From Actinotalea alkalitolerans (GTDB lineage: Bacteria; Actinomycetota; Actinomycetes; Actinomycetales; Cellulomonadaceae): DNA of 64,000 bases. Of the stretch, positions 2,056-15,407 are shown in pieces. Position 1 is the first letter of the stretch. Every line of letters begins with the position of its first letter. The notes beneath the pieces are model-generated. The model ran no database searches, was not told the origin of the DNA, and saw only the letters and a program-made list of their open reading frames with translations. The position numbers and the translations under genes are program-made. The stretch covers positions 248,001 through 312,000 of the forward strand of contig NZ_JAMBPP010000006.1 of NCBI RefSeq assembly GCF_023369855.1. The letters are read 5' to 3'.

Positions 2056-2679
2056 GTGTCCGAGGTCAAGCTCGCCGCCGCCACCCGTACCGAGTTCGGC
2101 AAGGGTGCGGCACGTCGCATCCGCCGCGCCAACCAGATCCCCGCAGTGCTCTACGGGCACGGCGGAGAGCCCGTGCACATCACCCTGCCCGGCCACGAGA
2201 CGATGCTCGCGCTCAAGCACTCCAACGCGCTCTTCTCGATCGACATCGACGGCACCAGCCAGCTCGCGATCGCCAAGGACGTCCAGCGCGACCCGGTCAA
2301 GCAGGTCATCGAGCACGTCGACCTGCTCATCGTCATCAAGGGCGAGAAGGTCACCGTCGAGGTCAACGTCCACGTCACCGGCGAGTCGGCTCCTGGCACG
2401 ATCCACGTGGTCGAGTCCCAGACCGTCCAGCTCGAGGCCGAGGCCACGCACCTGCCCGAGTCGATCGACGTGTCGGTCGAGGGTCTCGAGGCGGGCGAGG
2501 CGGTCCGTGGCTCCGACCTGGTCCTGCCCGAGGGCGCCGTCTACCTGGGCGATGCTGCTGACGTCATCGTGATGGTCTCGCAGCCGCGTGCCTCTGCCGA
2601 GGACGACGCAGCCGTCGAGGAGCTCGCCGCCTCGCAGTCCGCGGCCTCCGCCGCCGCCGACGTCGCAGCGGGTCTCTGA
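2056..2679 (+). CDS. rplY: 50S ribosomal protein L25 / general stress protein Ctc
   Basis: The 207-residue protein is the long Ctc-type L25 that binds 5S rRNA. Residues 1-95 form the L25 beta-barrel (start [20 protein letters not shown]) and residues about 100-185 the C-terminal TL5-like domain. It ends in an Ala-rich acidic tail. The GTG start at 2056 is supported by AGGAG at 2046-2050 or nearby. The 284-bp gap after prs holds a possible -10 (TAGAGT, about 1855-1860) but no convincing -35, so I do not call a promoter. A hairpin follows the gene. Confidence 0.95.
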
Positions 2680-2710
2680 CCTGAGGCTCATCGATCTGGT
2701 ACGAACGCTG

Positions 2711-2741
2711 CGACGCCCGGTCCCGCTGGGGCCGGGCGTCG
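2711..2741 (+). terminator. Hairpin between rplY and pth, possible terminator or attenuator
   Basis: CGACGCCCGG (2711-2720) pairs perfectly with CCGGGCGTCG (2732-2741), and CCC/GGG pairs continue inside the loop. No T-tract follows, as is usual for actinobacterial hairpins. It lies about 30 bp after the rplY stop and 26 bp before the pth ATG, so it may only weaken read-through. Confidence 0.55.
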
Positions 2742-2767
2742 CGCGCGTCGGGGAGGGTGCGCAGGAG

Positions 2768-3364
2768 ATGACCACACCGTGGCTCGTGGTGGGCCTGGGC
2801 AACCCCGGACCCGCCTACGCGGGCAACCGCCACAACGTCGGGCACATGGTCATCGACGAGCTCGCCCGCCGCAGCGGGGCGCGGTTCACCTCCCACCGCA
2901 GCCGTGCTCAGGTCGCCGACGTCCGTCTCGGGGTGCTGCCGGGCGGGGCTCCCGGCCCGCGGGTCGTCCTGGCCAGGCCGACGACCTTCATGAACGTCTC
3001 AGGCGGGCCCGTCGCAGGGCTGAGCCAGTACCTCCAGGTCCCGGTCGACCATGTGCTGGTGGTCCACGACGAGCTCGACATCCCCTTCGCCGAGGTCCGC
3101 CTCAAGGCCGGGGGAGGCGAGGGTGGCCACAACGGCCTGCGCAGTGTCAGCTCGTCGCTGGGCACCCGTGACTACCTCCGGGTCCGCGTCGGCGTGGGTC
3201 GCCCCCCCGGGCGCACCGACCCGGCGGACCACGTCCTGAAGGACTTCACCTCGACCGAGCGCAAGGACCTGCCCTGGCTGGTCGACGCGGCGGCGGACGC
3301 CGTGGAGATGGTCGTGGTCCAGGGGCTGCTCGCAGCGCAGCAGCGGTTCCACGCACCAGGCTGA
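2768..3364 (+). CDS. pth: Peptidyl-tRNA hydrolase
   Basis: The 198-residue protein recycles peptidyl-tRNAs released from stalled ribosomes. It shows [21 protein letters not shown] at its start, with the catalytic His at residue 22, then [20 protein letters not shown] (catalytic Asp) and [12 protein letters not shown]. The ATG at 2768 was chosen because it places the conserved core at residue 5. A GGGAGGG stretch about 10 bp upstream can serve as ribosome binding site. In related actinomycetes pth is often close to mfd; here a 35-kb EPS locus separates them. Confidence 0.96.
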
Positions 3365-3405: not shown

Positions 3406-3455
3406 CGGGTGAAATCCGACACTTTGGACAACCGGGACAGAACATCAGGTATAGC
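3406..3455 (+). promoter_or_regulatory. Candidate EPS promoter with CGGGTGAA motif
   Basis: CGGGTGAA lies at 3406-3413, followed by TTTGGACAA and, 18 bp after GGACAA, TATAGC (3450-3455) as a possible -10. It sits 32 bp before the ATG of the initiating sugar transferase. The octamer recurs in other promoter regions of this locus. Transcription from here is inferred. Confidence 0.45.
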
Positions 3456-3486
3456 CTCGGGATCCGGATGGAACCGGGGGTGGGGC

Positions 3487-5013
3487 ATGACACTGGCGGC
3501 TGAGCGCGGTCTCGAGTGGGCCAACGACGACGACCGGCGTGCCCGTGCCGTGGAGCCGCGGCGATCGTGGGCGTCCGCGCAGCCCTTCGTGCCGCGCAGC
3601 ACGCCGTTCAACGACCAGGCCGCCCGAGCCGGCCACTGGGCGAAGGTCGCCCTGGGTTACCAGCGTCGCGTGGTGGTCGTCGACGCCTTGGCCACCGTCG
3701 CCGTCGGAGCGGGTCTCGCCTGGACGAGCCTGGGGCGCGGTGTCGAGGCGCTGGGCACCGTGCTGCTCGCCTCGGTGGGCTTCGTGGTCCTGGTCGCCGT
3801 CGCGCGGGGCTACGAGACCAAGACGCTCGGCGACGGACCCGCCGAGTTCCAGGCGATCATCCGCGCGGGCGTGATGTCCGCGGCGGTGCTGATGACGTTG
3901 AGCTACGCGTTCCAGACCGAGATCTCGCGGACCGTGGTCTTCCTCGGGACGCCCGCCGTGGTGCTGCTGGCAAGCCTGGGTCGCTACACGCACCGCAGGT
4001 TCCTGCACCGGGAGCGTTCGCACGGTCAGGCGATGATGAGCACGCTGGTGGTGGGTGACTACCACGCGGTGGCACGGGTGGTCGGCGACCTCGCAGCGGC
4101 GCCCTACCACGGCTACCAGGTCTCGGGCGTGTGCCTGAGCAGCATCGATGAGCCCTCACCGTTCCCGGACGTCCCGGTGGTCGGCGCACTGGCCGACATC
4201 CCGCAGGTCGTGGCCGACCGTGCGGTCGACGTCGTCGTGGTGGCGGGGACGAGCATCAGCGGCGAGGGCCTGCGTCGGCTCACCTGGGCGCTCGACCGCG
4301 CCGGGGCACAGCTGATCGTCGCCCCCGACATCGTGGAGGTGACCAGCCCCCGCCTCACCCTTCGCCCGACGGCAGGGCTGTCCCTGCTGGCTGTGGAGGT
4401 CGGATCGCCTCGCCGGCGCATGATCGCCAAGGCCGCGCTCGACCGCACCGCAGGCCTGGTCCTGCTGCTGATGGCCGCGCCGGTCATCGCCGGAGCGGCA
4501 CTGGCCGTCCGGCTCACGTCCCCAGGCTCGCCGTTCTACCCGCAGACGCGTGTGGGGGTCGACGGTGCGACCTTCACCATGTGGAAGATCCGCAGCATGT
4601 ACGTCGACGCCGCCGCTCGGAAGGCCGAGCTCGCCGACCTCAACGAGGCCGACGGGGCGTTGTTCAAGATGCGTGCCGACCCTCGCGTCACCCCGGTCGG
4701 TCGGGTGCTGCGCCGGTTCTCGCTCGACGAGCTGCCGCAGCTCGCCAACGTCGTCAAGGGCGACATGTCGCTCGTCGGCCCGCGGCCGCCCCTCGCCGAG
4801 GAGGTCGCCGTCTACGAGGATGCCGTCCACCGTCGGCTACGGGTCAAGCCGGGTCTCACGGGGCTCTGGCAGGTGTCCGGTCGGTCCGACCTCAGCTGGG
4901 AGGAGTCGGTCCGCCTCGACCTGCGCTACGTCGACAACTGGTCGGTCGCGATGGACCTGGAGATCCTGTGGAAGACGGCACGGGCCGTGCTGCGGGGCTC
5001 GGGGGCCTACTGA
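3487..5013 (+). CDS. EPS-initiating polyprenyl-phosphate glycosylphosphotransferase
   Basis: The 508-residue membrane enzyme would start EPS repeat-unit assembly by moving a sugar-1-phosphate from a UDP-sugar to undecaprenyl phosphate. About four to five hydrophobic segments occupy residues 55-165. A CoA-binding-like cytosolic domain follows (about 180-300), then the bacterial sugar transferase domain from about 315 with MWKIRSMYVDA, RRFSLDELPQLANV, LVGPRPPL and KPGLTGLWQVSGRS. The architecture is the CpsE/WbaP type; the transferred sugar cannot be read from sequence. The ATG at 3487 is preferred over an in-frame GTG at 3409, which overlaps the likely promoter. It is the first gene of the EPS locus. 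Confidence 0.93.
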   Translation: MTLAAERGLEWANDDDRRARAVEPRRSWASAQPFVPRSTPFNDQAARAGHWAKVALGYQRRVVVVDALATVAVGAGLAWTSLGRGVEALGTVLLASVGFVVLVAVARGYETKTLGDGPAEFQAIIRAGVMSAAVLMTLSYAFQTEISRTVVFLGTPAVVLLASLGRYTHRRFLHRERSHGQAMMSTLVVGDYHAVARVVGDLAAAPYHGYQVSGVCLSSIDEPSPFPDVPVVGALADIPQVVADRAVDVVVVAGTSISGEGLRRLTWALDRAGAQLIVAPDIVEVTSPRLTLRPTAGLSLLAVEVGSPRRRMIAKAALDRTAGLVLLLMAAPVIAGAALAVRLTSPGSPFYPQTRVGVDGATFTMWKIRSMYVDAAARKAELADLNEADGALFKMRADPRVTPVGRVLRRFSLDELPQLANVVKGDMSLVGPRPPLAEEVAVYEDAVHRRLRVKPGLTGLWQVSGRSDLSWEESVRLDLRYVDNWSVAMDLEILWKTARAVLRGSGAY

Positions 5014-5078: not shown

Positions 5079-6752
5079 TCAGCCTCGCTTGCGGACCACG
5101 GCCACACCGTCGGTGTAGACGTTCTTCGACGAGTCGAACGTGAAGGCCTCGGGCGCGATGATCGCGCAGTCCTTGTGCTTGGTGGCGCGGCCGAAGGTGT
5201 TCCCGGTGATCGCGAGGTTGGCGGGACTGGTGCCCTTCGCGCCGATGTTGATCGAGCATGCGCCGTTGTCGATCCAGTTGCCGGTGATGCGGACGTTGGA
5301 GACGGCTCCGGCGTCCTGGGTGAGCATGATGGCGGCGTTCTTGGATCCGTTGATCGTGTTGCCGGTGAAGGTGAGGTTGCTGCCCGCCTGGATCTGGATG
5401 TTGTCGTCGTGGCTGGGGCCACCGTTCCAGTTGGGGTCTGAGGTGAAGTGAGCGTTGTCGTGCAGCCAGGAGTTCTCGATGGTGACGTTGTTGCCGCGGA
5501 TGTGCACGGAGTCGATGACGTTGTGGATGTTGACGCGGCGGGCGGTGATGTTCATGCCGCGCAAGCCGTCGATGTTGGGGTGGGCGGTGAAGGGGGCGAG
5601 CTCGCTGTCCTCGATGAGGACGTTGTGGCTGGCCGAGCCGACCGCGACCAGACCCCGGCCGAAGGTGGTGGGGCCTCCGCGCACGATGGAGTTCTTGATG
5701 GTGACGTTGGCCGCCTTGACCTGGACGAACCCGCGGATGTCCAGGCCGTTGATGACGGTTCCTGGCGTGGTGATCGTCAGGTCACCGTTGTGGACCCTGA
5801 GTGAGGTGCCTGCCGGGACCCCGGTGTTGGTGGGACCAGGCTTGGCCGCACCCGGCGCCGGAGCGGGTGCGGGTGCAGGTGCAGGTGCGGGTGCAGGTGC
5901 CGGCAGCGGGGCTGACGGCTTCACGGCCGAGGCGGTTGCGCGACCGTAGTACTCGTCACTCGCGATGATCCCGCCGATGACGGCCTCGACCCGGGATCCT
6001 GTCTGGATCGCTCGTACCCAGTTCGTCCGCCCGGTCGGGTCGATACCACGGCCGAGCAGCGACTCGTAGTGACTGTTGATGACGGTGGCGAGGTGCTCGG
6101 ACGAGAGGAGGAAGCCCAGCGCGACGTTGTAGCGACTGGCACCACCGTTCAGCTGGTTGGTCCAGTGCGCGACTTCTTGGCTGCTGGCCGATCGACCCAG
6201 TACGTCGCGGTAGAGCTTGGCCACCCAGCGGGAGGGCTGCTTGTCGACCCTCAGGTAGTACTCGTCCGAGGCGACGAAGCCTGACTCCATCTGCTGGATC
6301 GTCAACCCTCGACTCATCGCATCGAGCCAGTCCTGAAGGCCCTTGGCGTCCGGGGCTCGGCCGAGGTACTTCCGGTAAGACGCGGTGATCAGGTTGCTGC
6401 GGTACTCGGCACTGTACGTGATCGCGTTGGCGACGCTGACCCGCGGAGATCCGGCGCGCAGGTGCTGCGTCCAGGTAGACAGACCGCCAGCGTCAGGAGA
6501 CCGCTTGAAGAGGTGCTGGTAGACGCTCGCGACGTAGAGCGTGGTGGCGTCGGTGGACGAGGTCACCACGCGGGTGGCGGTCGCGGGCCCGGTCTGTGCG
6601 TGGGCCGCCGGGACGGCGAGCACACCCAGCAGGAGAGCGCTCAGCCCTGCAGCGGCCAGTCGACGCCCGGCCAGAGTGGGGGTCCGGCGAGCGGTGGGGG
6701 GTGTTGCGGTGAGAGGGGCGCTGCGCGCGACCCGGAATTCTGTCTGTGTCAC
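5079..6752 (-). CDS. Secreted DUF4214 plus parallel beta-helix protein under riboswitch control
   Basis: The 557-residue protein is probably exported and associated with EPS. The GTG at 6752 is chosen as start because GGAG lies 5 nt upstream (minus strand), immediately after a riboswitch. Residues about 25-52 form a signal peptide ending AAHA. Residues about 65-270 carry repeated YVASVYQHLFKRSPD and YRDVLGRSAS units typical of DUF4214. A Pro-Ala linker follows, then a right-handed parallel beta-helix of about 250 residues (repeats such as NVTIKNSIVRGG and NVTIENSWLHDN), a fold of polysaccharide lyases and binding proteins. No catalytic residues are certain, so lyase activity is only possible. 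The C-terminal half is nearly identical to that of the gene at 7397. Confidence 0.85.
   Translation of the reverse strand: MTQTEFRVARSAPLTATPPTARRTPTLAGRRLAAAGLSALLLGVLAVPAAHAQTGPATATRVVTSSTDATTLYVASVYQHLFKRSPDAGGLSTWTQHLRAGSPRVSVANAITYSAEYRSNLITASYRKYLGRAPDAKGLQDWLDAMSRGLTIQQMESGFVASDEYYLRVDKQPSRWVAKLYRDVLGRSASSQEVAHWTNQLNGGASRYNVALGFLLSSEHLATVINSHYESLLGRGIDPTGRTNWVRAIQTGSRVEAVIGGIIASDEYYGRATASAVKPSAPLPAPAPAPAPAPAPAPAPGAAKPGPTNTGVPAGTSLRVHNGDLTITTPGTVINGLDIRGFVQVKAANVTIKNSIVRGGPTTFGRGLVAVGSASHNVLIEDSELAPFTAHPNIDGLRGMNITARRVNIHNVIDSVHIRGNNVTIENSWLHDNAHFTSDPNWNGGPSHDDNIQIQAGSNLTFTGNTINGSKNAAIMLTQDAGAVSNVRITGNWIDNGACSINIGAKGTSPANLAITGNTFGRATKHKDCAIIAPEAFTFDSSKNVYTDGVAVVRKRG
5244..5588 (-). repeat. 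345-bp block identical to 7562-7906
   Basis: This block inside the beta-helix coding region matches 7562-7906 base for base on reading, in the same orientation and 2318 bp apart. The flanking parts of the two genes are clearly diverged, so recent gene conversion or duplication is likely. Confidence 0.9.
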
Positions 6753-6761
6753 TTCTGCTCC

Positions 6762-6850
6762 GTGATTCGGTAGCTTGGCTGACCCTGTGGGGTCCCATAG
6801 CTTTGCGTCCCCGCCTCTCGACGGGTTTGCCTTTGTCGTCAACGTCCTCG
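6762..6850 (-). promoter_or_regulatory. Cyclic-di-GMP-I (GEMM-I) riboswitch
   Basis: Read on the minus strand, the leader contains in order AAAGGCAAACC, a 6-bp stem CCCGUC/GGCGGG closed by a GAGA (GNRA) tetraloop, GGGACGCAAAGCUA (tetraloop receptor and ligand-pocket strand), a GACCC/GGGUC hairpin, and AGCCAAGCUACCGA. This is the ordered set of conserved blocks of the GEMM-I class, which binds c-di-GMP. The closing outer stem P1 is not obvious by eye. The element ends a few bases before the GGAG ribosome binding site of the 5079-6752 gene, which suggests control of translation or of leader read-through. The direction of control cannot be told. Confidence 0.85.
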
Positions 6851-7396
6851 TGTCGATATCGGCATGAGGATGCTCTGGCATGAGCCCGGATTCTCCCGAA
6901 CTTGGCGGGGATGTCCGTTCGCTGCTCCACTCGGGAGCGGCTGGTGACTCGGGCCCCTACGGGGGCAGCCAGAACACTAGGTGCTTGCGAACCGAGAAAT
7001 CCAGGCCTGTGCCGAACGTCACAAGGACTATTCGGACAGTCCAGACATAGCGCATCGAGGTTCACCCGAACGCGGCTTGTCGGAGGTCCTGCACACCGAT
7101 AAAGAGTCCGCCCGGAGGAGATCTGGCGCGCGCGCGGGGGCCGTATCGACCTGACCCGAGAGGCGAGGCTGCGCGACACCGTGCGGGTCAGTGCTGTGAT
7201 CGTGCTGTGAGTCCCTCGGCGCCTCCACCTCCCTTCGGGCGAGCGTGGTCAGTGCGCATGGCCGCCGGCCATGAGCAGCCGCGCGGCTGGTGTGCACGGA
7301 GCCGTGATGCCCGACGAGGGACGCAGAGGGTCGCGGGAACGGCGAGGTGACGAGTGGCAGCACGCCAGGCCGCGGCAGCGATCAGGACGCGCTGGG
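6851..7396. other. Non-coding stretch with promoter elements
   Basis: I see no convincing gene here. On the minus strand, in front of the riboswitch, it holds CGGGTGAA (plus-strand TTCACCCG at 7061-7068), TGTCCG with AATAGT about 7030-7045 that may be a promoter, and a GGACT/AGTCC inverted repeat over that site. Near the stop of the gene at 7397, CATGGCC (7257-7263) and GGCCATG (7267-7273) form a 7-bp hairpin with a 3-nt loop. It could help to end transcription of that gene. Confidence 0.4.
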
Positions 7397-9295
7397 TCAG
7401 CCCGTCCTGACGGACACCACGGCGCCGTCGTCGAACCTGTTTCCCCCGACGTCGAACGTGAACGCCCTGGGTGCCACGATCGCGCATCCTGCGTGGCGGG
7501 TGTTGCGGCCGAAGGTGTTGTCGGTGATCGCGAGATTGCGGGGAGCGTCGGATGCTGCCTTGATGTTGATCGAGCATGCGCCGTTGTCGATCCAGTTGCC
7601 GGTGATGCGGACGTTGGAGACGGCTCCGGCGTCCTGGGTGAGCATGATGGCGGCGTTCTTGGATCCGTTGATCGTGTTGCCGGTGAAGGTGAGGTTGCTG
7701 CCCGCCTGGATCTGGATGTTGTCGTCGTGGCTGGGGCCACCGTTCCAGTTGGGGTCTGAGGTGAAGTGAGCGTTGTCGTGCAGCCAGGAGTTCTCGATGG
7801 TGACGTTGTTGCCGCGGATGTGCACGGAGTCGATGACGTTGTGGATGTTGACGCGGCGGGCGGTGATGTTCATGCCGCGCAAGCCGTCGATGTTGGGGTG
7901 GGCGGTCAGGGGGGCGAGCTCGCTGTCCTCGATCAGGACGCTGTGGTGGGGTGAGCCGACCGCGACCAGACCCCGGCCGTGGGTGGTGGGGCCTCCGCGC
8001 ACGATGGAGTTCTTGATGGTGACGTTGGAGGCGTTGACCTGGACGAACCCGCGGATGTCGAGACCGTCGATGACGGTGTCGGGGGTGGTGATGGTCAGGT
8101 CGCCGTCGTGGCGGGTGAGATGAGTGCCGGTCGGCACGCCGGTGTTGCCGGGTCCGGGCTGACCAGCCGGAGCCGGAGCCGGAGCCGGAGCCGGGGCTGG
8201 AGCAGGAGCCGGTGTGGGAGAGGGCTCCGGAGCGGGGGCCTCGGCCGCAGGCGTGTCCGTGATCGGCGCTGGAGCGGGCTCCGTGGGAGCGGGGTCAGGC
8301 TCGGCCTTCTCGATGTCCGCTGGGGGAGCCCAGGAGGGTGCGACGTCCGAGGGCGGAGAGGTGGCTGCCTCGGGCCTGGCGTCCGCCTCGACACCGTCGG
8401 AGGTCCGCGCCACGAAGTACCCGGTGACCCGGGGATGGATCCGGACGCTCGCCTCGGTGTTGAACAAGGTGATGTCACCGCCGTCACGGAGAGGCACGGC
8501 CACCGTCGCCAGGGCCCGGGTCTGCGCCCTGACATCCAGGACGGGCTCCTCGTCGCAGGTCGCGGTGGTCTCGGGCGTCGGGCAGGCGTAGACGGCGGTG
8601 TCGCGCCATGCTCCGTGTCCGGCGAGGCGGACGGAGACGGCGATAGCGCCGGCCGGCGGCTCGCCCACGGACAGGACCGCCGACTCCCGCGGTGCGATGG
8701 TGCGTGAAGCGACGGCGACGGCAGGGATGCTCGTGAAGACGCCGCCGTCGGCGTCACCGAGGCCGTGGACATGGAAGCCTGCCACGTCCAGGTTGGCCTG
8801 CACGTCGCCGGACAGGCTCTGGACGTGCACGGCATCTCCGCGAGCACCACCGAGAGGGACCGAGAAGGAGGCCGGGGCGAACCCGGCGCCCGAGAGGTCC
8901 ACTCGCGCGCAGGTACCCGGTGCGGCTGCGCCGGCTGGACACACCTCGAGAGATGCGGGGGATGGCCCCAGGGGTGTCACCGTGAGTGACGCGGTGCTCG
9001 CGCCGCCGGGAACGTCGGCGAGCCTGATCGTGCGGCCGGTTCCGCTGCCAAGACTCAGGGGTGTCGTAGGGGGAGGAGATGCGAGATCGACGCGGACCGT
9101 GTCCGTCGGGACCGGTGGCTGGACCATGGTGCGGGCACCGAGCTCGCTGACACCAGGAGCCGCGAGCGTCACCTCCCTGGGAGTGGCCGCTGCGAGATCG
9201 GCCGGGGCGGTGGCACCGCCCGTGAGAGCGCATGCGACCGCGAGTATGAGGCCATGCTGCAGACGGGCGCGGTTCCAGGTGGTGCGTGCTCGCAC
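7397..9295 (-). CDS. Secreted parallel beta-helix protein, paralogue of 5079-6752
   Basis: The 632-residue protein is probably secreted. The GTG at 9295 is supported by GGAGGAG 5 nt upstream. Residues about 12-35 form a signal peptide. The N-terminal 300 residues are beta-rich (VRVDLASPPPTTPLSLGSG, ASLTVTPLG, VQANLDVAGFHVHG) and recall the repeated beta domains of secreted actinobacterial proteins; I do not recognise a named family. A Pro-Ala-Glu linker follows (about 340-400), then a beta-helix of about 240 residues nearly identical to that of the neighbouring gene. Its leader has no GEMM-like blocks, so the two paralogues are probably controlled differently. A role in EPS binding or modification is inferred from context. 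Confidence 0.8.
   Translation of the reverse strand: MRARTTWNRARLQHGLILAVACALTGGATAPADLAAATPREVTLAAPGVSELGARTMVQPPVPTDTVRVDLASPPPTTPLSLGSGTGRTIRLADVPGGASTASLTVTPLGPSPASLEVCPAGAAAPGTCARVDLSGAGFAPASFSVPLGGARGDAVHVQSLSGDVQANLDVAGFHVHGLGDADGGVFTSIPAVAVASRTIAPRESAVLSVGEPPAGAIAVSVRLAGHGAWRDTAVYACPTPETTATCDEEPVLDVRAQTRALATVAVPLRDGGDITLFNTEASVRIHPRVTGYFVARTSDGVEADARPEAATSPPSDVAPSWAPPADIEKAEPDPAPTEPAPAPITDTPAAEAPAPEPSPTPAPAPAPAPAPAPAPAGQPGPGNTGVPTGTHLTRHDGDLTITTPDTVIDGLDIRGFVQVNASNVTIKNSIVRGGPTTHGRGLVAVGSPHHSVLIEDSELAPLTAHPNIDGLRGMNITARRVNIHNVIDSVHIRGNNVTIENSWLHDNAHFTSDPNWNGGPSHDDNIQIQAGSNLTFTGNTINGSKNAAIMLTQDAGAVSNVRITGNWIDNGACSINIKAASDAPRNLAITDNTFGRNTRHAGCAIVAPRAFTFDVGGNRFDDGAVVSVRTG
7562..7906 (-). 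repeat. 345-bp block identical to 5244-5588
   Basis: Second copy of the direct repeat within the beta-helix coding region. Recombination between the copies would remove 2318 bp, including the riboswitch and the DUF4214 domain, and leave an in-frame fusion. Confidence 0.9.
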
Positions 9296-9409
9296 GTGGT
9301 CTCCTCCAGGGCGTCATCCTGCGGGTGGGCGGGCGGACCTGGAGGCGGCATCGAGCGGACGTCCTCAGGTCGCATATCATTCGGCAGCCCGGAAGGCGAG
9401 AGCCTGAAC

Positions 9410-9457
9410 CGGGTGAACTTCATCCGCCAGGCAGGACTATAGGGCCAAACGGGTGAA
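9410..9457 (-). promoter_or_regulatory. Candidate promoter with two TTCACCCG motifs
   Basis: On the minus strand TTCACCCG occurs at 9457-9450 and 9417-9410. The first lies in the 18-bp spacer between GGACAG and TATAGT (about 9444-9439), which look like -35 and -10 boxes for the gene starting at 9295. The layout matches the promoter before 38023 (TGTCCG, 18 bp, TAAGAT). Confidence 0.5.
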
Positions 9458-9492
9458 TGCTGTCCACCCCGTGTCCCATCAGGCGAGGTGGG

Positions 9493-10440
9493 TCAGGGGG
9501 CGATGTGGGCAACGTCACGCTGCGACCGCGCCTGACGGGAGCCGTGGCGTATGACGAACCACAGGCCTTCGAGCGTGCCGGCGGCGACTGCCCAGATCGG
9601 GGCGAGATGCCGGTACCGCGGACCTCTGAGCCCACCCCGGCGCAGCACCGTGCGAGCGAACGCGGGCGACCGGAGCACCCAGGCGATCTGATGGCGTCCG
9701 TCGAGGTGCTTGGCAGCGAAGACGAGCCTGTTCCGGACGTTGTAGCGGTAGTAGAGCAGGGACTTCCCCGGGCCCTGGGTCCCGCCGACGTCGTGCACGG
9801 CGTCGAGGTCGGGACGAACCGAGAGCCGCCCGCCGGCCCGGGTGCACCGCCAGCTCAGGTCGACGTCCTCCCAGTAGAGGAAGTACTCGGGGTCGAACCC
9901 GCCCACACGGGTCCAGAGCTCGGCGCTGACAGCCAGGCAGGCCCCCGACAGCCAGCCCGTGCGACCAGCGGAGCTCGCTCCCGTCGTCACCGTGCGTCCG
10001 TCCCGGAGGCGGACCTCGCCGCCGGCGAACCAGACCGAGCCGTCGGTCCGCAGGATGCGAGGGCTGACCATCGCTCCCGGATCCCGACGGCAGGCGTCGA
10101 CGAGGCTCCGCAGAACGGCGACGTCGATCCGCAGGTCCGGGTTGAGCAGCACGAGCGCGGTGCAGTCGCTCGCGAGGGCACGGTCGACACCGACGTTCAT
10201 CGCGGCTCCGAAGCCGACGTTGGTGGCGAGGGGGACGACCTCCCAGCCATGGGACCTGCCGACGTGGCCGATCGCATCCCGCTCCTCGTCGGTGGACCGG
10301 TTGTCGACGACGACGACGTGCGTGTCGAGGCCGGCGAGGTCGAGCGTGGCGAGGTTCCTCTCGACGAGCGCGTGGGAGCCGTAGTTCACCACCACGAGGC
10401 CCAGGCGGGACGCGAGCCCGTCGTCCATCGACCGCGTCAC
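9493..10440 (-). CDS. Glycosyltransferase family 2, rhamnosyltransferase-like
   Basis: The 315-residue enzyme probably adds one sugar to the lipid-linked EPS repeat unit in the cytosol. It has the GT-A features LGLVVVNYGSH, VVVVDNRSTDE, NVGFGAAMNVG, VLLNPDLRI (metal-binding region) and GGFDPEYFLYWEDVDLSWR, the last typical of WbbL-like rhamnosyltransferases. The sugar donor is not certain. The GTG at 10440 overlaps the stop of the flippase gene as GTGA and suggests translational coupling. An ATG at 10428 is the alternative start; neither has a clear ribosome binding site. It is the last gene of a five-gene minus-strand operon. Confidence 0.88.
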   Translation of the reverse strand: MTRSMDDGLASRLGLVVVNYGSHALVERNLATLDLAGLDTHVVVVDNRSTDEERDAIGHVGRSHGWEVVPLATNVGFGAAMNVGVDRALASDCTALVLLNPDLRIDVAVLRSLVDACRRDPGAMVSPRILRTDGSVWFAGGEVRLRDGRTVTTGASSAGRTGWLSGACLAVSAELWTRVGGFDPEYFLYWEDVDLSWRCTRAGGRLSVRPDLDAVHDVGGTQGPGKSLLYYRYNVRNRLVFAAKHLDGRHQIAWVLRSPAFARTVLRRGGLRGPRYRHLAPIWAVAAGTLEGLWFVIRHGSRQARSQRDVAHIAP

Positions 10441-11951
10441 AGGAGTGCCCCACGTGAGGCCCCGAGCCGTGCGATGGCGAGCACGCCGCTGATGTCCCTG
10501 CGCAGGGGTGGGAGCACGAGCCCCCCGAGCGCGTAGACCGCCACCGTCGTGACCGCGGTCACCGCGAGGCGGAGCGGCGCAGGGTGCGCGACGAGCGTCA
10601 GGTCCACGACCGCTGCGACACCGGCCGCGCAGGCCACGACGGCGAGGATCCGCAGGGCTCCGGTCATGAGCGCTCGGGTAGGGATCACGGTGCGTCGTGA
10701 GAGCCACCACAACGACAAGGGCCAGGCCAGCGCAGGGGCGACCGCGTACCCTGCGGCGACCCCGATCACCCCCCAGGTGCTCCCGACGAGGATGCAGACC
10801 ACCTTGATGGCTGCCGTCACCATGGTGTAACGAAGCAGGTCTCCGGTGAGGTTGCGCGAGAGGTAGATCCAGTAGCCCACGTAGGACAGGGTCTGGAAGA
10901 TGCCCGCGACCGCCAGGAGGCGCAGGAGCGGGACCACGGTCTCCCACCGCGGACCCAGGAAGATCTCGACGATCGGCTCGGCAGCGGTGGCGACGACCCC
11001 GAGCGCCGCGACGAGGGTGTATCCCAGCGCCAGCTGTCCGCGACGGATGAACTCCGCGTAGCGCAGGTCGTCGTCCTGGAGGCGGGACAGGACCGGGAGG
11101 GCCACGGTCGTCGTCGGTGCACGCAGCTGGTTGAGCGGGGTCATGAGGAGGTGGAAGGCCCGGTTGTACAACCCCAGCGAGCCGGCGCCGAACCTGAGAC
11201 CGATCACGAAGGAGTCGACGTTGTTGCTCGCGTAACCGATGAGCTGCGTCCCGACCAGGCGCCAGCCGAAGCGCAGCAAGCCCCGCATCTCGACCCCTCG
11301 GTGCGGCAGGCGCGGGAACCACCGGGCGCTCACGGCGTAGGCGATGAGAAGGGTGGTCGTCTGGGCGAGGGTCTGCGCGACGAGCGCCCAGTACCCGAAC
11401 CCGGCCACCGCGAAGGCCATCGCGACCCCGAGGGCGATCACCGGAGCGAGCACGTCCGCCATGGCGAGCGCGCCGAACCTGAGGTGCCGGACGAGGTCGG
11501 CCCGGTACTGGGTCGCGATGCCGTTGAGCAGGAAGGTGACCGACAGGAGTCGTGCGATCCCGACGAGCTCGGGCTGGTCGTAGAGCGCGGCCACCGCTCC
11601 CGCCGCGACGAACACGACCGCGCCAAGGGTCAGGCCGATCCCTGTGTTGATCCAGAACAGGTTGTCCCGCTGCTCACGGGAGAGCGTCGGCGCCTGGATC
11701 GCTGCCGAGGACAGACCGAAGTCGCGGAAGATCTCGCCGACGCCGACGATCACCACGACCATCGCGATGAGGCCGTAGTCCTGCGGTGAGAGCACGCGGG
11801 CCAGCAGTGCTACCGAGAGCACCTGGATGACGATCCGGAGTCCCTGACCGCCCAGGGTGACGAACGCGCCGCGTGCCGCGTGGTGCCCGAGGCCGAGCGG
11901 TGCGCGGGCCGGCGCCGGTGTGCGATCGCTCCGACCCCGCGGCCGCCTCAT
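10437..11951 (-). CDS. Wzx-type polysaccharide flippase
   Basis: The 504-residue membrane protein belongs to the oligosaccharide flippase part of the MOP superfamily and should turn the undecaprenyl-linked repeat unit to the outer face of the membrane. About 12-14 hydrophobic segments are visible. The N-terminus has GAFVTLGGQGLRIVIQVLSV and ARVLSPQDYGLIAMV, and the middle RFGAGSLGLYNRAFHLLMTP, all typical of the family. The start ATG overlaps the stop of the preceding gene as ATGA. With the polymerase at 34765 and the Wzz-kinase at 36099 it completes a Wzx/Wzy-type system. Confidence 0.92.
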   Translation of the reverse strand: MRRPRGRSDRTPAPARAPLGLGHHAARGAFVTLGGQGLRIVIQVLSVALLARVLSPQDYGLIAMVVVIVGVGEIFRDFGLSSAAIQAPTLSREQRDNLFWINTGIGLTLGAVVFVAAGAVAALYDQPELVGIARLLSVTFLLNGIATQYRADLVRHLRFGALAMADVLAPVIALGVAMAFAVAGFGYWALVAQTLAQTTTLLIAYAVSARWFPRLPHRGVEMRGLLRFGWRLVGTQLIGYASNNVDSFVIGLRFGAGSLGLYNRAFHLLMTPLNQLRAPTTTVALPVLSRLQDDDLRYAEFIRRGQLALGYTLVAALGVVATAAEPIVEIFLGPRWETVVPLLRLLAVAGIFQTLSYVGYWIYLSRNLTGDLLRYTMVTAAIKVVCILVGSTWGVIGVAAGYAVAPALAWPLSLWWLSRRTVIPTRALMTGALRILAVVACAAGVAAVVDLTLVAHPAPLRLAVTAVTTVAVYALGGLVLPPLRRDISGVLAIARLGASRGALL

Positions 11952-13171
11952 CTCGACAGCCTCCGGACGCGAGCACGTGTCCCACGCGCAGTCCTGATGG
12001 CGTCCCGGGGGCGGCCGAGGGCGAGGCCGAGCAGTCCGAACCCCCGGTAGCGCGGTGAGCGCCTGCCCGCGAGGGCGGCCCCGACCAACCGCCCCAGGAG
12101 CGTCTCACGCCTGGTGCGCTGGAGGGGCTGGACCGCCGCGATGGCGTCGATGTCGACAGGTCTGGCCACCAGCACGCCGGCCTCGACGGCCCGACGCACG
12201 ACGTCGAGCCCGCGCGGCGTCCTGGCGATGAGTGCACTGACCCCCGCACCCTCGACGAAGACCGGGTACCCGCGCGCATCGGTGCGCCAGAAGTCGCCGG
12301 CACTCACGTCGCTGCTCTCGCCGACACCGTCGACGCACACCTTGCACCGCCACTGGACCGTGGGCCCGAGGTGGCGCCCCCATGACTCGTCGTACGACAT
12401 GGTCACCTGCTCCCCTCGGGTCGTGCGGGCCGTGAAGTCACCGGGCCAACCGTTCCCGCGGTAGCGCAGGCTCTCGAGCCGGGTGTCCACGGGGGCGCCC
12501 AGCGAACCGACGAGGGCGTCGGTCGCATGCTGGCTCGGCGTTCCCGCGCAGAAGAACGAGAGGATGAGGGGTTCTGCTCCCCCGCGCGCCGAAGCGAGCG
12601 AGCGGAGTGCGGACGCCTCGCACGGCTTGCCGACCACAGCGGCGGCCGGGTCCAGCGCGCCGACGGCGGCCGCCGTCGAGACGGGTGCGTACCGAGAGCC
12701 TGACGCCGCGAGGGCCTCGTCACGGCTCATGATCCGTACGCTGACCGTGCGGCGAGGGTCGTCCGCGTCGGCCCCTGCGCCGATCACGTACGCCGCCTCG
12801 CCCTCCTCGACCAGCCAGCCGGCCAGTGCGGTGAGCACACCACCGCTGCTGCCACGATGACGGATGTCCTCGTCGGCGGCCCACGCCTCCCAGACCCCCA
12901 GGGCGGGGCCCATCGTCGGGTGCCTCACGGAGCCGGGCGGGGCGGGAGCGCGCACCACGACCCCCGGGCAGACCGACCGGAACTGCCGTGCCAGGGCGCG
13001 GTCCTCGCGCTCGGTCGATGCCGAGGGGTGCGAGCGACACGGTCGGGAGTACCCCTCGCCGTCGAGCTCCATCGTGACGGCAGGGTCCAGCTGGCAGCAG
13101 GCACCGCACCCCGAGCACAGGCCGCCGTCGACCACCCGCGCGATCTCCCGGTCGAGCCGACGCGAGGTCAT
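11948..13171 (-). CDS. FrhB-like iron-sulfur/flavin protein (coenzyme F420 hydrogenase beta-subunit family)
   Basis: The 407-residue protein has an N-terminal ferredoxin-like Cys set (CSGCGACC, residues about 18-25), GSSGGVLTALAGWLVEEG near residue 110, VGKPCEASALRSL, ILSFFCAGTPS and a second Cys pair in WRCKVCVDG. These are the blocks of the FrhB family. Members in EPS clusters are commonly paired with pyruvyl transferases, but their reaction is not established; a redox step on a sugar or pyruvyl donor is only a guess. The gene overlaps both neighbours by 4 bp, so it is tightly coupled to the pyruvyl transferase upstream and the flippase downstream. Confidence 0.88.
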   Translation of the reverse strand: MTSRRLDREIARVVDGGLCSGCGACCQLDPAVTMELDGEGYSRPCRSHPSASTEREDRALARQFRSVCPGVVVRAPAPPGSVRHPTMGPALGVWEAWAADEDIRHRGSSGGVLTALAGWLVEEGEAAYVIGAGADADDPRRTVSVRIMSRDEALAASGSRYAPVSTAAAVGALDPAAAVVGKPCEASALRSLASARGGAEPLILSFFCAGTPSQHATDALVGSLGAPVDTRLESLRYRGNGWPGDFTARTTRGEQVTMSYDESWGRHLGPTVQWRCKVCVDGVGESSDVSAGDFWRTDARGYPVFVEGAGVSALIARTPRGLDVVRRAVEAGVLVARPVDIDAIAAVQPLQRTRRETLLGRLVGAALAGRRSPRYRGFGLLGLALGRPRDAIRTARGTRARVRRLSR

Positions 13172-14244
13172 CCCAGTCCCCGCAGGGCTTCGACCGCGGG
13201 GCGCAGCAGGACCTGCGCGCGATCGCGGACCGACGCCGCCCCGTCATCCAGGTCGTCGCGGTCGGTCAGGCGCAGCGCGCTCGTCGCCGCGTCGGTGTCC
13301 ACGCGCAGGTCGACCGTGTGGTGCCACCCGAGGTCGTCGAGCAGCGGCGCGAACTTGCGTGAGTAGGCCAGCGGGATCGCCGGGGTCCCCACGGAGAGCG
13401 CGTTGAGACACGCGTGCATACGTGAGCCGATCACGAGCTCGGCGGAGGCGACCAGCTCCCTGGCCTCCGTCAGCGACCCGGGGATCAGGGCCTGGGCATC
13501 AGGCGCGATCGTGCTGCGGAACTCGTCGATCGCGGGGACGTCGTCGTCGGGGGAGGAGGACGGGAGCACGTGCGCCATGAGGTCGACCCGGCGCCCGCCT
13601 GCGGTCAGGGACCTGTAGAGGTCGGCGACGGTCGACCGGTAGCGCTCGGCGTCGACGTGCGGGCCGGGCTGCCAGAGCAGGCCCGAGATGTTCAGCAGCA
13701 CGTCACGTGTCCGCGGTGTCTGCGGTACCGGGAGGGCGAAGACGACGTCCGTCGAGAGCGCGTCGACCGCGCGCCCGAGCTCGACGGCGTGCGCGGCGCT
13801 GACCGAGTCCCGGGCCATGACCAGCCGCGCGCGTCGGAGCGACCACCGGCCGATCGCCCGCCCGCGTGCGGTCGAGAACGGGCCGATCGTCTGCGGGCCG
13901 AGCACGACCGGCGTCCCGGCCTGGGTCGCGCACTCGGCAAGGGTCGACATCGTGGTGAGTCTCGCTGCGCCGTAGGCGTCGGTGAAGCTGTCGCCCGCGC
14001 GCATGTCGAGCACGACGTCGAAGCCGGAGAGCCACTTCTGCAGGCCGAACCGACCGGTGATGCGCTCGCGGACCAGTGATCGTGCGCCTTGGATCGGCAA
14101 GGGCGCTGGGCCGCGCCCGAAGCTCTGGAACTCGACCTGGACCTCGGGCCACGCCTGCTGCAGCAGCGCGTGGGCTCCTTCGCCCAGCGCGCGGACACCG
14201 AGGTTGGACGAGCGGTCGTCCGCCCAGAGCACGAGCGCTCGCAT
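13168..14244 (-). CDS. Polysaccharide pyruvyl transferase (CsaB/PssM-like)
   Basis: The 358-residue protein would add a pyruvate ketal from phosphoenolpyruvate to an EPS sugar and so give the polymer acidic groups. It starts MRALVLWADDRSSNLGVRAL and contains LDMRAGDSFTDAYG, VLGPQTIGPF, VMARDSVSAAHA and VIGSRMHACLNALSVG, the usual layout of PF04230 proteins. The ATG at 14244 has GAGGGGG 8 nt upstream. It is the first gene of the minus-strand operon that runs to 9493 through ATGA/GTGA overlaps. Confidence 0.9.
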   Translation of the reverse strand: MRALVLWADDRSSNLGVRALGEGAHALLQQAWPEVQVEFQSFGRGPAPLPIQGARSLVRERITGRFGLQKWLSGFDVVLDMRAGDSFTDAYGAARLTTMSTLAECATQAGTPVVLGPQTIGPFSTARGRAIGRWSLRRARLVMARDSVSAAHAVELGRAVDALSTDVVFALPVPQTPRTRDVLLNISGLLWQPGPHVDAERYRSTVADLYRSLTAGGRRVDLMAHVLPSSSPDDDVPAIDEFRSTIAPDAQALIPGSLTEARELVASAELVIGSRMHACLNALSVGTPAIPLAYSRKFAPLLDDLGWHHTVDLRVDTDAATSALRLTDRDDLDDGAASVRDRAQVLLRPAVEALRGLG

Positions 14245-14531
14245 CGAGCTGGTCCCCCTCGCAATCGGTACCGCCGGAGCGCCGAGCCCATGGCCGCCGG
14301 TCCTTCGGCGGTCCGGCCGACGGTGGCGGGGTGTGATCCTGTCACCCTGCGGATCATGGCGGGTGGCAGGCAGCGAATATACCGACGAACCAGGCAAAGA
14401 GGGCTGGACCGCGCGGGTGAAACTGACGGCAAAGCCGGACAAAGTGCCCGGGGGCCTGGGAGGATGCACCGAAGCACGGCGACACGGAGCCCGTCCGGTC
14501 GCTCTCATGAGGGGGAACTGACACCGCTGTG
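14245..14531. promoter_or_regulatory. Divergent EPS promoter region
   Basis: This 287-bp gap separates the minus operon from the plus operon. The minus strand has TATATT (plus 14376-14381) as a good -10 for the pyruvyl transferase. The plus strand has CGGGTGAA at 14414-14421, then CCGGACAA and, 18 bp after GGACAA, AGGATG, the same spacing as in the promoter before 3487. I see no gene or RNA structure in the rest. Confidence 0.45.
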
Positions 14532-15407
14532 ATGCTCGCCTCCAGGGCACGGTCGTTGCTCGAGCCGTCGCTGATCGCCTACAACGGCTACAACGCGGGC
14601 CTGGGAAACCGGGTGCGCGTCGTCCTGGGCGCCAAGGCTCTCGCCGAGGCCGAGGAGAGGCAGTTCCTCTTCGTCTGGCCGACAGGTCGGCTCTTCGGCC
14701 CGGACTTCTCTGACCTGTGGAGGTTCGAGGGGACCACGATCCCGCGGGCGGTGTCGCGAGCCATGGCCCGGTGGTACCCGTACGTGGACGAGACCCTGAC
14801 CTGGCTCGACGACGACAAGCGCACCGAACGGGTCTGGCAGATCCGCACGGGGAGCCCGCTGGCGCAGCTCCCTGGGGTCCGGCCCTGGCAGGACGAGCTG
14901 CGTGCCCTCGAGCTCGTCCCCGAGGTCCAGCGCGCGGTGACCTCGTTCTACGACGAGCACCTGCGCGGTCACCCCTATGTCGGCGTGATGATCCGCGCGC
15001 ATGCCAACCAGCACGCACGTACGCGCGAGGCCTCCCCGGTCGAGTGGTTCGTGCGCCGGATGACGGAGATCGCCCGGGATCAGCCCGGGACGAGGTTCTA
15101 CGTGTCGTGCGACGTCCCTGAGGTCCAGGAGCGGGTGGTGGCAACGGTCCCGGGGTGCGTCGGACAGCGTGACAAGGGGGCGTTCAACTCAGTCGAGGGG
15201 GTCCGCGCCGCACTCTGCGACGTGTACCTGCTCGCCTGCGCGGGGTATCTGATCGCACCGTACTACTCGAGCTTCGTCCATCTCTCGGAGCACCTGTCAG
15301 GCGATGTCCTCGTGGCTGAGACCTCGCTCGCCGGCCGGACCGGTGGGGTCGACGTGGTGTCCGCCGGGACGGCCCGGGACCCGTTGCGGCCCTACGAGCG
15401 ATCATGA
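14532..15407 (+). CDS. Fucosyltransferase-like glycosyltransferase (tentative)
   Basis: The 291-residue protein has no signal peptide. It opens with IAYNGYNAGLGNRVRVVLGAK, which resembles the GLGNR motif at the nucleotide-binding start of NodZ/O-fucosyltransferase-type GT-B enzymes. It later shows VGVMIRAHANQHARTREASP, comparable with the donor-binding IR motif of those families, FYVSCDVPEVQERVV and a C-terminal APYYSSFVHLSEHLSG. This supports a sugar transferase, perhaps fucosyl, but the match is by eye and weak. A GTG directly before the ATG is an alternative start. The stop overlaps the next gene as ATGA, and the gene opens the plus-strand glycosyltransferase operon to 19730. Confidence 0.6.
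   Translation: MLASRARSLLEPSLIAYNGYNAGLGNRVRVVLGAKALAEAEERQFLFVWPTGRLFGPDFSDLWRFEGTTIPRAVSRAMARWYPYVDETLTWLDDDKRTERVWQIRTGSPLAQLPGVRPWQDELRALELVPEVQRAVTSFYDEHLRGHPYVGVMIRAHANQHARTREASPVEWFVRRMTEIARDQPGTRFYVSCDVPEVQERVVATVPGCVGQRDKGAFNSVEGVRAALCDVYLLACAGYLIAPYYSSFVHLSEHLSGDVLVAETSLAGRTGGVDVVSAGTARDPLRPYERS

Follow-up and report, generated by a model that had tools for sequence, protein, structure and literature searches.

A c-di-GMP-I-type riboswitch ahead of a DUF4214/β-helix gene in an EPS locus of Actinotalea alkalitolerans

The minus-strand leader of the gene at 5079-6752 in the window, the whole 64,000-nucleotide stretch of A. alkalitolerans DNA analysed here, carries a c-di-GMP-I-type riboswitch, a class that is already known. 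With a probability of roughly 0.8, and leaving the direction of control aside, this element acts on that gene, which encodes a DUF4214/β-helix protein in an EPS locus. A cmscan search of the whole 64-kb window returned this site as its single riboswitch above the gathering score (the table omits one overlapping match of the same clan). The best family was c-di-GMP-I-GGC (RF03167), matched at 6840-6765 on the minus strand with 72.3 bits against a gathering score of 59 (E = 3.5e-15) and aligned over its full length (positions 1-80 of 80). The c-di-GMP-I/GEMM-I model RF01051, a search with which had been proposed in an earlier sequence-only reading of this DNA, scored 71.9 bits at the same site against a gathering score of 35; the two models belong to one clan and the GGC model scores best. 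Both matches support the riboswitch class which that reading had named from the conserved GEMM-I blocks. All of these blocks were found in the order it gave, GAGA-looped P2 included, and the aptamer falls within the span of 6762-6850 that it had assigned. The leader contains the following features.

6765..6840, minus strand: c-di-GMP-I-GGC aptamer with P1, P2 carrying a GAGA loop, and P3 (RF03167, RF01051)
6831..6831, minus strand: G20-equivalent, expected c-di-GMP selector (sequence)
6810..6825, minus strand: P2 hairpin CCCGUC-GAGA-GGCGGG (Rfam alignment)
6768..6770, minus strand: terminal CCG, forming the P1 3' strand and the C92-equivalent ligand contact, and predicted alternative partner of the Shine-Dalgarno sequence (sequence, folding)
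6758..6762, minus strand: Shine-Dalgarno CGGAG, directly 3' of the aptamer (sequence)

The P2 loop, GAGA, is of the GNRA type. Downstream of the aptamer, CAC, GGAG (6761-6758) and a GTG start codon (6752-6750) follow in this order, which places the element just 5' of the ribosome binding site, as had been read from the sequence. Since just 3 nt separate the window aptamer from GGAG, no separate expression platform is seen. The window copy has the equivalents of G20, A47 and C92 (Vc2 numbering), and its G at 6831, equivalent to G20, presumably selects c-di-GMP over cGAMP. No aptamer feature distinguishes this full-length, above-cut-off match from c-di-GMP-I-GGC. With c-di-GMP-I/GEMM-I, of which Vc2 is an example, the window copy shares the ligand-contact bases and the GNRA-looped P2; it differs in its slightly higher score with the GGC model and in the distance of only 3 nt from aptamer to GGAG. 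About 15 nt upstream of the window aptamer, GCCGATAT at 6856-6863 (minus strand) resembles a sigma-28/WhiG -10 box; the other β-helix copies are without this box by eye, and no claim of a promoter is made.

Within the genus, RF03167 was found in all 19 genomes searched (2-9 matches each, 87 in total), and 85 of these matches were used for the genus analyses, leaving out one of 28.5 bits and one of 29.1 bits. Across the 85 sites, the G20-equivalent was G in 83 and A in 2, the A47-equivalent was A in 75, G in 8 and C in 2, and the C92-equivalent was C in 84, with one unread. Standard pairs filled 454 of 462 P2 cells, versus 229 and 310 after a one-base slide, in the 77 of 85 sites covered by this count, whose regular expression left out eight sites including the window copy. 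The same 77 sites held 34 distinct P2 segments with varying pair types, for example CG/UA and GC/AU. As a member of this class, the window RNA would be expected to bind c-di-GMP.

The gene behind the riboswitch had been described as encoding a secreted DUF4214/β-helix protein. Its product indeed matched PF13946 (DUF4214) at 132.2 bits against a gathering score of 23.2 and the right-handed β-helix family PF13229 at 33.8 bits against 25.9, and a signal peptide was recognized by inspection. The gene and its neighbours are listed below.

3409..5013, plus strand: EPS sugar transferase, converging on the 5079-6752 gene (PF02397, 212.7 bits)
5079..6752, minus strand: riboswitch-led gene of 557 aa, with a signal peptide by inspection, DUF4214 repeats and then a β-helix (PF13946, PF13229)
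5079..5915, minus strand: right-handed β-helix module (PF13229, AlphaFold2 model)
5946..6545, minus strand: DUF4214 repeats (PF13946; G000:C32:253946-254545)
7397..9295, minus strand: upstream β-helix paralogue without riboswitch (PF13229, 40.4 bits)
9493..11322, minus strand: EPS locus glycosyltransferase 2 (PF00535, PF13641)
10437..11951, minus strand: EPS locus flippase-type polysaccharide protein (PF13440, 258 bits)
13168..15144, minus strand: EPS locus polysaccharide pyruvyl transferase domain (PF04230, 75.5 bits)

The sugar transferase, glycosyltransferase, flippase-type and pyruvyl transferase domains flanking the 5079-6752 gene define the EPS locus, so the Pfam matches agree with the setting proposed in the sequence-only reading. 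The paralogue at 7397-9295 has the same β-helix with a different N-terminus, and it had been said to lack the element; no riboswitch was matched before it in 9200-9700 even when the threshold was relaxed to E 10. The β-helix modules at 5079-5915 and 7397-8230 have a common 776-bp block with 89% DNA identity. Five consecutive 60-bp blocks of this module pair are identical, which suggests recent gene conversion between the copies with and without the riboswitch. The best named β-helix relative was from Cellulomonas chitinilytica, with 56% in the best segment.

The AlphaFold2 model of the β-helix at 5079-5915 showed regular strands, with a mean pLDDT of 88.3 and a pTM of 0.85. In a Foldseek search against the PDB, AlgE ranked first, followed by PL6, GH28 and phage tailspikes, and a resemblance to the adhesin PfbA was also found. 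Among the 50 matches listed, E-values ranged from 1.5e-4 to 1.4e-2. The likeness to the AlgE mannuronan epimerase, the PL6 lyases and GH28 is at the level of the fold only. Query-normalised TM-scores were low (0.18-0.56) and identities were 8-15%, and no catalytic assignment is made for the window protein. A profile of the β-helix gave a weak match to endopolygalacturonase 1k5c (E = 7e-4), and a viral fold search returned generic β-helix and tailspike matches alone. From the fold and the locus, it is plausible that the β-helix protein binds or modifies EPS.

To place the window copy among its relatives, its own genome (G000) contains six RF03167 matches, scoring 72.3 (the window copy), 62.2, 60.4, 58.0, 56.4 and 52.6 bits. 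Three of the six lie above the cut-off, and under RF01051 the same six are all above it. In wider samples, RF03167 was found in 96 of 200 genomes of the family (94 above cut-off) and, at E ≤ 0.001, in 157 of 396 genomes of the phylum (109 above cut-off). The β-helix module was matched in 13 of the 19 genus genomes, and an aptamer stands directly before a β-helix gene in nine of them (G000, G008, G066, G089, G099, G107, G113, G147 and G154). The β-helix gene is truncated by a contig end in G107 and G154, and G135 was not countable for contig ends. In seven of these nine genomes, a second β-helix match, itself without an aptamer, has its end no more than about 600 nt upstream of the aptamer; the distance is about 1.5 kb in G107, and G089 has no such match nearby.

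The N-terminal part of the proteins behind these aptamers varies. It is DUF4214 in G000, G099, G113 and G089 and DUF4082 in G147, and no Pfam family was found there for G008 or for the contig-cut protein of G107. In G066, the C-terminal part matched NosD just above and Beta_helix just below the cut-off, and the N-terminal part has no family. The same arrangement of aptamer and β-helix occurs in a genome of another genus (G030) with yet another N-terminus, and in a second genome of that genus (G005) an aptamer precedes a contig-cut protein whose first part is similar to the window protein (58.8% over 199 aa). Furthermore, tblastn found the window genes at 9-782, 608-1771, 2056-2679, 2588-3364 and 3409-5013 kept as a flank near β-helix genes in G113, G099, G066, G089, G154:C28 and G030, and the sugar transferase adjoins the β-helix genes in other species as well. 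In G154:C28, the flank and the β-helix gene are present and the aptamer is absent. Ten β-helix loci in named genomes had no riboswitch above the gathering score within the stretch examined, so the link between β-helix and riboswitch is not universal; two of five of these genomes have RF03167 above cut-off elsewhere. Because it recurs in related species, the EPS/β-helix arrangement is real and probably links c-di-GMP to the cell-surface matrix. A search for DUF4214 together with a riboswitch gave no match in the open-access literature.

The genes downstream of the 85 genus copies (all above 40 bits) were classified by script with a heuristic choice of start. About 34 were BldC-like (a few divergent), 19 encoded a protein of about 50 aa and three were EAL proteins; the remainder comprised 14 large ORFs, most of which look secreted by inspection and one of which encodes a GGDEF protein, and 15 short ORFs that were of other kinds or unclear. 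NCBIfam matched two own-genome BldC copies at 102.8 and 98.3 bits against 77, and Pfam matched one EAL protein and one GGDEF protein behind aptamers. It also matched a polysaccharide lyase 14 behind one aptamer, with the assumed start 41 nt downstream. In the genome of the window, BldC-family genes stand behind three aptamers, in L014 (G000:C31:112000-128000) and L016 (G000:C30:1-14000); two of these BldC copies are successive genes, with fliW and a flagellin-type gene no more than about 4 kb away. EAL-like proteins follow aptamers in L121, L126 and L173 (Pfam-checked in L121 only) and a GGDEF protein does so in L169, so that c-di-GMP may influence its own turnover through feedback. The protein of about 50 aa has a VPPQVLARWAA-like core, as at L013:6610-6783, and the one member checked matched neither Pfam nor NCBIfam. 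At L015:4756-8514, the neighbours of an own-genome aptamer are a gene resembling signal peptidase (PF10502) and small proteins that appear to be secreted and have no Pfam family above cut-off; the ORF taken as standing behind this aptamer has 30 codons.

In actinobacteria, c-di-GMP control is best known from the protein BldD of Streptomyces. In that system as in the present one, c-di-GMP is connected with Bld-group regulators of actinobacteria, except that here the link would run through aptamer copies before BldC-family genes rather than through a protein receptor. bldC is given as one of the BldD targets in Streptomyces in one study (PMC6428758). A search for BldC, c-di-GMP and riboswitch together found no match in the open-access literature. 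The recurring EPS/β-helix link and the BldC genes behind a c-di-GMP riboswitch are possibly novel.

Several other explanations of the window element were weighed. It is very improbable that the window RNA senses another cyclic dinucleotide, for example 3',3'-cGAMP. In its favour, PMC7266159 states that c-AMP-GMP is sensed by rare variants of this class, and the two genus copies with A at the G20-equivalent include one before a DUF4214/β-helix gene (L128, G113:C11:482132-482206; the other is L154, G099:C12:301008-301083). The window copy, however, has G at 6831 where GEMM-Ib, the 3',3'-cGAMP type, has A, and domains of c-di-GMP metabolism are plentiful in its genome, with 38 GGDEF matches and 27 EAL matches (26 above cut-off). 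An equally small chance is given to a decaying aptamer whose regulation has been lost. The neighbouring paralogue works without an aptamer, and two P3 pairs of the window copy differ from the consensus; yet in the RF03167 alignment each of them has gone from C-G to U-A through a change of both bases, so pairing is retained, the window copy scores best of the six in its genome, and the arrangement recurs in other species. We attach next to no weight to a gene start at ATG 6881, which would put the aptamer match inside the coding sequence. Although the frame is open back to 6881, the GTG at 6752 has a Shine-Dalgarno sequence before it and a signal peptide (by inspection) after it. The longer frame running through the aptamer is not accepted as coding, since similar aptamers stand before unrelated proteins (BldC, EAL, GGDEF and others) and their distances to the start do not share a single frame.

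As for mechanism, control of translation of the window gene would be the simplest reading, since GGAG follows the aptamer at a distance of 3 nt and a search of 6700-7500 gave no terminator pattern; this search gave no sigma-70-like promoter pattern either. A tendency of Actinomycetota riboswitches toward translational control is noted in PMC12452182. The predicted folding moderately favours a model in which c-di-GMP turns translation of the window gene ON. Without ligand, the terminal CCG would pair with CGG of the Shine-Dalgarno sequence; with ligand, P1 would take the CCG and the ribosome site would be freed. High c-di-GMP would thereby switch the β-helix protein ON during matrix building.

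In the ligand-free fold of the window leader, pairing between CCG and the Shine-Dalgarno sequence was 0.53, versus 0.18 with a shuffled linker. Mean values per class were 0.59 for the large, mostly secreted ORFs (n = 13), 0.21 for BldC (n = 34), 0.30 for the small proteins (n = 18), 0.07 for other genes (n = 13) and 0.78 for EAL (n = 2), against shuffled-linker means of 0.14, 0.10, 0.11, 0.11 and 0.21, respectively. Shuffling is a weak control because it destroys the Shine-Dalgarno sequence as well, and a better control is given by the remaining classes. Pairing was absent in 2 of the 13 large-ORF copies (0.01 and 0.00) and came to 0.13 in a third; in this run, the anchor was misplaced for G099:C20, where an incorrect CCGA was used, and for one BldC row. 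When P1 was forced, accessibility of the Shine-Dalgarno sequence rose by more than 0.1 in 7 of 13 large-ORF copies and fell in 2 of 13. For the window it went from 0.50 to 0.76, and in a longer fold the free value was 0.31. Among the 11 large-ORF copies with GGAG, a C stands before it in 9 (by eye), compared with 55 of 179 gene starts that were located mechanically. About three pairs make up the predicted hairpin, which a ribosome could displace. Of the 85 copies, 81 were kept for folding (four had no anchor), 80 of them distinct, giving 79 rows for accessibility and 80 for pairing. For G135:C31 the start was chosen manually, and the folding excluded tertiary structure; as starts and Shine-Dalgarno sequences were chosen heuristically on related sequences, no p-value is given.

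The opposite direction, in which c-di-GMP would close P1 near the Shine-Dalgarno sequence, block ribosome loading and turn the gene OFF, appears unlikely for the window gene, even though the end of P1 lies so close to GGAG. This direction would suit the BldC class, where the outer extension of P1 is well preserved (pairs in 31, 25 and 27 of 31 cells) and forcing P1 lowered accessibility in 14 of 32 copies and raised it in 4 of 32. In the large-ORF class, by contrast, the outer extension is poorly kept (6, 9 and 7 of 14 paired), and in most copies it is the free fold, not the bound one, that hides the Shine-Dalgarno sequence. Matrix genes, moreover, are usually ON at high c-di-GMP, which again argues for the ON direction at the window gene.

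A still more doubtful, wider reading is that compact translational riboswitches of two polarities operate across the family, turning one β-helix matrix protein per EPS locus ON and BldC-family regulators OFF. As part of it, the N-terminal part of the protein would be exchanged between species while the riboswitch and the β-helix are kept. If true, it would amount to an RNA-based switch between matrix and motility, in which an aptamer directly reaches BldC, itself a BldD target in Streptomyces. What is added to the known class is the link to a β-helix with exchangeable N-termini and a wider set of downstream genes that includes the BldC family. The organism combines dozens of GGDEF and EAL domains with six aptamer copies, standing before a surface protein of the EPS locus and BldC-family regulators, among others, and its pair of β-helix genes, one with and one without the riboswitch, offers a built-in comparison. 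Should the RNA respond as predicted, c-di-GMP control of matrix and regulators outside Streptomyces would be open to direct tests that use short leaders and reporters.
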